Below are positions 36,980 through 38,758 of a stretch of DNA of 64,000 bases, one piece after another. How positions within the stretch are numbered: the stretch's first letter is position 1; each line of letters starts with the position of its first letter. The stretch covers positions 90,829 through 154,828 of the forward strand of contig JAFKMZ010000006.1 of NCBI GenBank assembly GCA_017305055.1, written 5' to 3'. The notes under the pieces were generated by a model, which was not told where the DNA came from, did no database searches, and saw only the letters and a program-made list of their open reading frames with translations. A program made the position numbers and the translations under genes. The DNA is from Lysobacterales bacterium. GTDB taxonomy: Bacteria; Pseudomonadota; Gammaproteobacteria; Xanthomonadales; Rhodanobacteraceae.

Positions 36980-37662
36980 GCGAGGTGCCGGTTCGGCTCG
37001 AGGCGTCGTGGAAGGCGCGGCTCGGCGATTACCTGCAGCGGCCGGAGATGCAGGAACTGAGCCGCTTCCTGCGCGGCCGGCAGCAGGCCGGCGCGCACAT
37101 CTACCCGCGTGGCGGGGAAATCTTCAATGCCTTTGCCCACACCCCGTTTGCGGCAGTGCGCGTGGTCATCCTCGGCCAGGATCCTTACCATGGCCCGGGC
37201 CAGGCCCATGGCTTGTGCTTTTCCGTCCGGCCCGGCATACGCGTGCCACCCTCGCTGCAGAACATTTTTCAGGAATTGCAGCGTGACCTTGGCCTGCCCA
37301 TGCCGTGTCATGGCTGCCTGGAGGCCTGGGCGGATCGCGGCGTGTTGCTGCTCAACAGCGTGCTCACCGTCGAGGAGGGTCGCCCGGGTGCGCACCAGGG
37401 CAGGGGCTGGGAGGGCTTCACCGATGCGGCGATTGCCGCGCTGGGACGCGAACGCGAGGGCCTGGTATTCCTGCTCTGGGGCTCCTATGCGCAGCGCAAG
37501 GGTGCCTTGATCGACCGCTCCCGGCATTGCGTGCTGCAGGCGCCCCATCCCTCGCCGCTCTCGGCCCATCGCGGCTTCATCGGCTGCGGGCACTTTTCCG
37601 CCGCCAATCGTTATCTCTCCGGTCGTGGCGAGCCCCCCATGGACTGGTCGCTACCTCCCTGA
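36976..37662 (+). CDS. ung: Ung, uracil-DNA glycosylase
   Basis: A 228-residue family 1 enzyme. Motifs: catalytic water-activating loop GQDPYHGPGQAHGLCFSV, LLNSVLTVEEG (uracil-binding Asn) and the leucine-loop HPSPLSAHRGF. It removes uracil from DNA to start base excision repair. It begins with GTG at 36976, overlapping the TGA of the response regulator. Confidence 0.97.
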   Translation: MSEVPVRLEASWKARLGDYLQRPEMQELSRFLRGRQQAGAHIYPRGGEIFNAFAHTPFAAVRVVILGQDPYHGPGQAHGLCFSVRPGIRVPPSLQNIFQELQRDLGLPMPCHGCLEAWADRGVLLLNSVLTVEEGRPGAHQGRGWEGFTDAAIAALGREREGLVFLLWGSYAQRKGALIDRSRHCVLQAPHPSPLSAHRGFIGCGHFSAANRYLSGRGEPPMDWSLPP

Positions 37663-37754
37663 AAGGTCCGTGCGCGGCGCTTCAACTGGCGCAAGCCGGC
37701 CGACCCGGGAACCCGGTGCCGCAGCCGCCCGGGGGATGAAGGACGTCGCGACAC

Positions 37755-37783
37755 TGGACCGCAGGGTCAAATACATGTACTAT
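37755..37783 (+). promoter_or_regulatory. Upstream promoter candidate for rpoH
   Basis: TGGACC (37755-37760) and TACTAT (37778-37783) with an ideal 17-bp spacer, about 115 bases before rpoH and outside the CIRCE element. It would give a HrcA-independent or roadblocked transcript. Confidence 0.4.
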
Positions 37784-37785
37784 GC

Positions 37786-37816
37786 AGTTCAATAAATGTT
37801 CATCCCATGTTGAACT
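37786..37816. promoter_or_regulatory. Inverted repeat AGTTCAA-N17-TTGAACT in the rpoH leader
   Basis: Perfect 7-bp arms (37786-37792 and 37810-37816) around a 17-base centre, between the upstream promoter candidate and CIRCE. The arms are about 24 bp centre to centre, a plausible binding site for a dimeric regulator. No factor is recognised. Confidence 0.45.
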
Positions 37817-37825
37817 AAATGCGCG

Positions 37826-37856
37826 TTTTAGCACTCCAATGGGCCGAGTGCTAAAA
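37826..37856. promoter_or_regulatory. CIRCE operator (HrcA binding site) overlapping the rpoH promoter
   Basis: TTAGCACTC (37828-37836), 9-base spacer, GAGTGCTAA (37846-37854): identical to the CIRCE consensus, and the arms extend to 11 bp with two extra T/A pairs. A TTAGCA -35 (37828-37833) and a TAAAAT -10 (37852-37857), spacer 18 bp, lie inside the arms, so HrcA binding would block RNA polymerase. The start codon of rpoH is about 42 bases downstream. Confidence 0.93.
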
Positions 37857-37897
37857 TAGCCCATCGATCATCACCTTTGATCAAGGAGACACTGTCC

Positions 37898-38758
37898 ATG
37901 TCCCAAGCTTTGGTGACTGCGAATTTTCCCTTGCCGAGTGTGGTTGGCAGCCTGGATGCCTATATCTCGGCGGTACACCGCATCCCGGTGCTGAGCGTCG
38001 AGGAAGAGCAGGAGCTGTCGCGCGAATACCAGCGTGACGGCGACCTGGCGGCGGCGCGCAAGCTGGTCATGTCGCATCTGCGTTTCGTGGTGCACGTGGC
38101 CCGCGGTTACAGCGGCTACGGCCTGCAGCTCGCCGACCTGATCCAGGAAGGCAACATCGGCCTGATGAAGGCGGTCAAGCGCTTCGATCCGGACCATGGC
38201 GTGCGCCTGGTGAGCTTTGCCGTGCACTGGATCCGTGCCGAGATGCACGAATTCATCCTGAAGAACTGGCGCATCGTCAAGGTCGCCACCACGAAGGCGC
38301 AGCGCAAGTTGTTCTTCAACCTGCGCAAGAGCAAGAAGCGCCTGGGTTGGATGAACGCGGCCGAGGTGCGCGGCGTGGCCGCGGACCTGGGCGTGCCGGA
38401 GGCGACGGTGCGTGAAATGGAGTCGCGGCTGTCCGGTCGCGACGTCGGTTTCGAGCTGCCAGTGGATGCCGACGAGGACACCAAACCGGCGCCGGCCGGG
38501 TTCCTGGTCGACGATGGCGCCGACCCCTACGACAGCCTGGCCGACGAGGACTATGCCGACAACCAGTCGCAGCTGCTGTCCGATGCGCTCGAGCACCTGG
38601 ATACGCGTTCGCGCGACATCATCCAGCGGCGCTGGCTCGACACCGAGAACAAGGCCACGCTGCAGGACCTGGCCGACGAATATGGTGTGTCGGCCGAGCG
38701 CATCCGCCAGGTCGAGGCGAACGCGATGAAGAAGATGCGCACCCTGGTTGCCGCCTGA
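37898..38758 (+). CDS. rpoH: RpoH, heat-shock sigma factor (sigma-32)
   Basis: A 286-residue sigma-70 family protein close to E. coli RpoH (284). Region 2 includes [19 protein letters not shown] and [16 protein letters not shown]; the RpoH-specific box [17 protein letters not shown] follows, and region 4 ends in [16 protein letters not shown] with the helix-turn-helix. The ATG at 37898 has a good AAGGAG site (37883-37888); an upstream TTG frame overlaps that site and is rejected. It directs heat-shock genes. Expression here appears controlled by a CIRCE operator in its promoter. Confidence 0.97.

Follow-up and report, generated by a model that had tools for sequence, protein, structure and literature searches.

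The window (the whole 64-kb stretch of DNA that was analysed) derives from a genome of 3.5 Mb that is 97% complete. It contains the rpoH gene, which encodes sigma-32; the product matches TIGR02392 (406.7 bits, relative to a cut-off of 323.1) and also NF005143. Genes for a response regulator and a uracil-DNA glycosylase are situated 5′ of rpoH on the same strand, and an S41 peptidase gene is found 3′ of it on the opposite strand, convergent with rpoH. An AAGGAG motif is placed 9 nt ahead of the rpoH ATG. Among 80 named loci, a set from which records very close to the window may be absent, the nearest relative of this RpoH is that of Dyella flagellata (85%), a member of the family Rhodanobacteraceae, order Lysobacterales (NCBI).

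Upstream of rpoH there is a perfect 11-bp inverted repeat, TTTTAGCACTC-CAATGGGCC-GAGTGCTAAAA, whose left arm (TTTTAGCACTC, 37826–37836) and right arm (GAGTGCTAAAA, 37846–37856) are separated by an N9 centre. Within it, TTAGCACTC-N9-GAGTGCTAA (37828–37854) is the CIRCE consensus and matches all 18 consensus positions with 0 mismatches; the initial annotation described it correctly as a perfect CIRCE with 11-bp arms. The distance from the repeat to the rpoH ATG is 41 nt, and not 42 bp as first given. The window has no second CIRCE match at three or fewer mismatches. A chance origin of the repeat was rejected, as none of 100 dinucleotide-shuffled versions of the window yields a CIRCE at this threshold and none is expected. 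The features of the region are listed in Table 1.

Table 1. Positions of features in and around the rpoH upstream region (window coordinates)
Feature	Position	Strand	Basis
Distal sigma-70-like promoter, TGGACC-N17-TACTAT	37755–37783	+	Counterparts in 12/19 family genomes, including this one
Sigma-E-type -35, TGAACTA (order consensus GGAACTT)	37811–37817	+	2 mismatches to GGAACTT
CIRCE-type inverted repeat, putative HrcA operator, 11-bp perfect arms, N9 centre	37826–37856		Consensus match and order-wide conservation
Sigma-E-type -10, TCCAA (last 2 nt of left arm and first 3 nt of N9 centre)	37835–37839	+	N17 from -35
Extended -10-like element, TGCTAAAAT, formed by right CIRCE arm	37849–37857	+	Conserved T at third base past arm
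Shine-Dalgarno-like AAGGAG of rpoH	37883–37888	+	Sequence
rpoH, sigma-32 (ATG at 37898)	37898–38758	+	Open frame and TIGR02392, NF005143

For its proposal that HrcA controls rpoH, the initial annotation looked to an hrcA gene elsewhere in the genome and to the same repeat at rpoH in relatives, and both are found. The genome has one copy of hrcA (353 aa, 213.8 bits); the C-terminal domain of HrcA scores 212.7 bits and the DNA-binding domain 19.6 bits, slightly under the cut-off of 21. The rpoE gene, which encodes sigma-E, is also present (317 bits, relative to a cut-off of 236.15). At three or fewer mismatches the genome holds two CIRCE sites, one at rpoH with 0 mismatches and one at groES with 2 mismatches.

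The same-genus sample comprised 24 genomes, of which two without a whole rpoH were left out; all 22 with upstream sequence have an rpoH CIRCE with 0–1 mismatch, and the N9 centre is variable. The order sample comprised 121 genomes, 59 of them with hrcA. Five were dropped for having no rpoH match at E≤1e-80, among them one with hrcA (G057), and CIRCE was counted on all 116 remaining rpoH upstream regions themselves. With up to four mismatches, the site is present in 54 of 58 hrcA-positive genomes and in 0 of 58 hrcA-negative genomes; with up to two, in 50 of 58 and 0 of 58, and the best match among the hrcA-negative genomes has six mismatches. The association has a Fisher p of 2e-28 over the 116 genomes, a value that ignores kinship and overstates the case.

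The exceptions among hrcA-positive genomes are of several kinds. Two (G039 and G058) have perfect arms but an N8 centre, an unusual spacing (L041, L123), and G085 has a site with five mismatches. G043 (L277) is the only hrcA-positive genome of the order without any rpoH operator. The left arm has decayed (CCGGCAGTC) in G085 (L055) and in Xanthomonas pisi (L145), and hrcA is present in both. In family f2, 8 of 17 sites from hrcA-positive genomes have the symmetric variant TTAGCAGTC-N9-GACTGCTAA. As a separate observation, the RpoH of G043 seems, as an impression only, unlike that of the rest of the order, and gene transfer or misplacement is possible.

Trees were built on RpoH and include G043, L203 and L204. 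For order genomes, CIRCE was scored as present with up to four mismatches or with perfect arms and an N8 centre; for named genomes the limit was three mismatches. The order tree, of 59 rows, needs five changes of hrcA and seven of CIRCE. It offers four independent hrcA contrasts on supported branches, of which CIRCE follows a mean of 3.7 and opposes 0.0 (median p 0.125). When the 50 named genomes described below are added (109 rows), there are nine pairs, with 5.3 in the same direction, 0.2 opposite and 3.5 without difference (median p 0.0625). The kinship-corrected sign tests keep the trend and do not reach 0.05 in either tree, which is why the Fisher value is to be read as too strong. Since the site is kept by nearly all sampled hrcA-positive genomes of the order and by no hrcA-negative one, the CIRCE at rpoH is very probably functional and tracks hrcA among the sampled relatives. 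The initial proposal of HrcA control of rpoH is thus still the best reading of the sequences, because hrcA is present and the site is conserved and tracks it, and HrcA repression of rpoH is likely.

Instead of being a DNA operator, the repeat could act mainly at the RNA level, as a 5′-leader hairpin with a stabilizing or temperature-sensing function. With its perfect 11-bp arms it would indeed fold into a hairpin in transcripts that start at the distal promoter. The left arm, however, would be outside transcripts from the two near promoters, and it is the CIRCE letters themselves that are conserved, beyond mere pairing. An RNA thermometer or hairpin as the main role was rejected because the repeat is limited to hrcA-positive genomes in the order sample, with 0 of 58 hrcA-negative genomes carrying it, and because the region 37600–38400 has no Rfam match at E≤1; this role is considered highly improbable.

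The site is also found outside the order. CIRCE with three or fewer mismatches is present upstream of rpoH in 40 of the 80 named loci, many of them betaproteobacterial; all 80 are counted, although at least one of them (L193) has almost no upstream sequence. Carriers include Pandoraea, Trinickia, Nitrosomonas, Polynucleobacter, Pseudacidovorax, Uliginosibacterium, Methylocaldum and a Geobacteraceae MAG. The 50 named genomes checked for hrcA were hand-picked and non-random (36 of the 40 loci that carry CIRCE, 14 of the 40 that do not), and in this set the rpoH CIRCE is present in 33 of 37 genomes with hrcA versus 3 of 13 without. Thus 4 of the 37 hrcA-positive genomes are exceptions that lack the rpoH CIRCE, and the three carriers with no detected hrcA are all MAGs. 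The checked genomes of Aeromonas, Photobacterium, Kluyvera, Dickeya, Shewanella and Haemophilus have neither hrcA nor an rpoH CIRCE. The putative HrcA operator at rpoH is therefore widely conserved wiring and not peculiar to this order. Pseudoalteromonas luteoviolacea (L165) has a perfect rpoH CIRCE, but its only HrcA match, at 46.6 bits, is very divergent; separate acquisition is possible.

Sigma-E promoters have the consensus GGAACTT-N16/17-TCnAA, and the extended -10 consensus of sigma-70 promoters is TGnTAnnnT. Both types of element are seen when rpoH upstream regions are aligned on the operator (55 sites from hrcA-positive genomes, five or fewer mismatches). GGAACTT is common to most of these regions; with at most one mismatch it occurs within 60 nt upstream of 47 of the 55 sites, whereas shuffled sequences give a mean of 3.7 and a maximum of 9. 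The spacing from the best GGAACTT match to the TC that ends the left arm is N16 in 35 sites, N17 in 9, N14 in 7 and other in 4. This TC and the first bases of the centre read TCCAA, TCTAA, TCTCA and similar, i.e. a sigma-E-type -10. In the seven sites of family f12 the operator is displaced by 2 nt and is still a CIRCE with 0–2 mismatches; the sequences found at N16, as read by eye from the alignment, are TCCAA (2), TCGAA, TCTAA, TCCCA and ACTAA (2). The constant promoter spacing, while the operator slides, indicates two elements and not one.

Scored anywhere in 200 nt, GGAACTT-N15-17-TCnAA with at most one mismatch is present in 72 of the 116 order upstream regions versus 0 of 116 shuffled ones. 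The genomes concerned are 38 of 58 with hrcA and 34 of 58 without, and this similarity argues that the promoter is independent of the operator. In the family of the window the match is weaker (3 of 19 genomes have at most one mismatch across the 11 positions scored), and in this genome it has two mismatches and the N17 spacing.

The initial annotation had placed a TTAGCA/TAAAAT promoter over the repeat (37828–37833 and 37852–37857, spacer 18). The TAAAAT half stands, as part of an extended -10: in the motif TGCTAAnnT, the T three bases past the right arm is present in 52 of 55 rpoH sites versus 0 of 20 groES sites, and this genome matches the extended -10 consensus with TGCTAAAAT. The groES set had 23 rows, three of which repeat other sites in the wrong reading direction; L260, one of 20 non-rpoH sites retrieved, showed no groES start and was left out, and the site of this genome completes the 20. 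The TTAGCA ‘-35’ coincides with the operator arm, so that no separate judgement of it is possible. The more widely conserved promoter in the order is the sigma-E type, even though in the window's own family this type is a weaker signal than the TAAAAT extended -10. From the GGAACTT spacing and TGCTAAnnT, TTAGCA/TAAAAT as the sole promoter was replaced by a sigma-E-type and extended -10 pair, and the operator appears to be nested within these two promoter-like elements. It should be pointed out that in much of f2 the rpoH ATG is only about 12 nt past the operator, and transcripts from TGCTAAGAT would therefore be nearly leaderless (e.g. L066, L071, L075).

Portions of both arms also serve as promoter parts, and this raises the question of whether the conserved letters reflect the overlapping promoters only, with HrcA having no real role at rpoH. 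Genomes that lack hrcA speak against this. G036, G035 and G045 retain promoter-like parts and have lost the left arm: an extended -10 is kept in all three (TGCTAAAAT in G035 and G045, TGCTAAGAT in G036), and G036 also retains GGAACTT-N16-TCCAA and the right arm, with a decayed left arm, in a genus whose remaining seven sampled genomes are all hrcA-positive. In f12, moreover, the operator stays a CIRCE despite its 2-nt slide against the sigma-E-type promoter. Promoters as the sole reason for the conservation would be very surprising. Both arms are absent from G086 and G050, which are hrcA-negative and come from families with hrcA.

The distal sigma-70-like promoter suggests a different mode of action, in which HrcA would be a roadblock to polymerase from this promoter and the sigma-E-like and extended -10 elements would be minor or unused. 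TGGAC[ACG]-N17/18-TAC[TCG]AT is present in 12 of 19 genomes of the window's family, ending 33–44 nt before CIRCE, and G091 has TTGACT-N16-TACTAT at a comparable position; the weakness of the sigma-E match in this family also fits. However, the distal element, which was sought in this family only, is absent from 6 of the 19 genomes, and the sigma-E-type spacing and TGCTAAnnT are kept across more families. The roadblock is regarded as unlikely, if less so than the two alternatives above. In genus g23, the distal promoter runs into CTGTAC-N6-GTACAG, a possible site for another regulator.

The control of hrcA itself was looked at in 20 upstream stretches, for which the first 240 nt were taken and only about 110–190 nt are truly upstream. 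None has a CIRCE under seven mismatches within these about 110–190 nt, where sites farther away could be missed, and no CIRCE at four or fewer mismatches is found within the 3.7 kb surrounding hrcA of this genome (L003). A sigma-32-like promoter, CTTGCAA-N14-CC[CT]TATT, is present upstream of hrcA in 8 of the 20, all among the 14 from the window's family, and in none of the six regions outside it. In this genome it reads CTTGCAA-N14-CCCTATT. The initial annotation had envisaged a cascade from HrcA to RpoH. The coupling is supported, but its one-way form may not hold: since hrcA has no nearby CIRCE and has a sigma-32-like promoter in part of the family, a closed negative loop, in which sigma-32 raises HrcA and HrcA represses rpoH, is plausible in the family of the window.

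HrcA is kept active by GroEL. In the unstressed cell, a HrcA dimer would occupy the operator and keep RNA polymerase off two overlapping rpoH promoters, one of the sigma-E type with its -10 beneath the operator, and the other of the extended -10 type, with the right arm as its -10. Misfolded protein would engage GroEL and release HrcA, so that rpoH and groESL would be derepressed together. Sigma-32 would then yield more hrcA-grpE-dnaK, and repression would be restored. The sequences show the operator, how it is conserved and goes with hrcA, and the promoter-like elements with their spacing; HrcA binding, repression, sigma-E use and the loop are inferred from them. Taken together, a genuine HrcA operator at rpoH whose occupation blocks two overlapping promoters is the probable arrangement, with good but not full confidence, and sigma-32-driven hrcA plausibly closes the loop.

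A wider proposal is offered tentatively, at somewhat below even chances: HrcA might gate the sigma-E input to rpoH, with a sigma-32-driven hrcA loop, in a wiring that is old in Beta- and Gammaproteobacteria and was lost with hrcA, the enteric circuit being derived. With the operator nested in the sigma-E promoter, envelope stress would then increase sigma-32 only in cells whose GroEL is saturated as well. In the standard picture from Escherichia coli, control of sigma-32 is mostly translational and proteolytic, and HrcA is a separate system. Should many hrcA-positive Proteobacteria have HrcA placed within the rpoH sigma-E promoter, the three heat-shock systems would be one circuit, and natural losses of hrcA would provide ready-made comparisons for testing it.

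The closest published parallel is in Geobacter sulfurreducens, where the accessible part of a 2004 paper predicts a consensus CIRCE at rpoH, at position -51 (Table 8; PMC545781). Operator, target gene and a similar distance to the start codon are shared with the present locus. Unlike here, where none was found near hrcA, the hrcA-grpE-dnaK-dnaJ genes of G. sulfurreducens also carry a CIRCE, and an overlap with a sigma-E-type promoter, as seen here, is not described in that part of the paper (PMC545781). In Xylella under nitrogen starvation, the available text reports a four-fold rise of hrcA at 2 h and a two-fold rise of rpoH at 8 and 12 h (PMC3224663); induction of both is contrary to simple HrcA repression of rpoH. 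A link between HrcA and rpoH is not stated in the accessible portions of PMC11764788, PMC3989490 and PMC4989314, and neither name occurs in the main text of PMC5343134. The accessible open-licence literature gave no statement that HrcA controls rpoH in this order, and none of an overlap between CIRCE and a sigma-E promoter. A 2003 study of beta-, gamma- and epsilon-proteobacteria by Permina and Gelfand may well describe such a link already. In the parts of the literature available to us, the rpoH CIRCE is thus in print for Geobacter only, and the apparent nested sigma-E-type/extended -10 architecture was not found described.

HrcA/CIRCE control of groESL uses the same operator, which at groES of this genome has the two mismatches mentioned. 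In relatives, the groES sites are unlike the rpoH sites, as GGAACTT is rarely upstream (2 of 23 rows) and TGCTAAnnT is found in 0 of 20; the operator is therefore placed differently relative to the promoter. The named enterobacterial loci differ in having no rpoH CIRCE, and hrcA is absent in the three checked. The P3 promoter of E. coli rpoH is sigma-E-dependent and of the GGAACTT/TCnAA type, and the rpoH upstream regions of the order resemble it in their sigma-E-type promoter.
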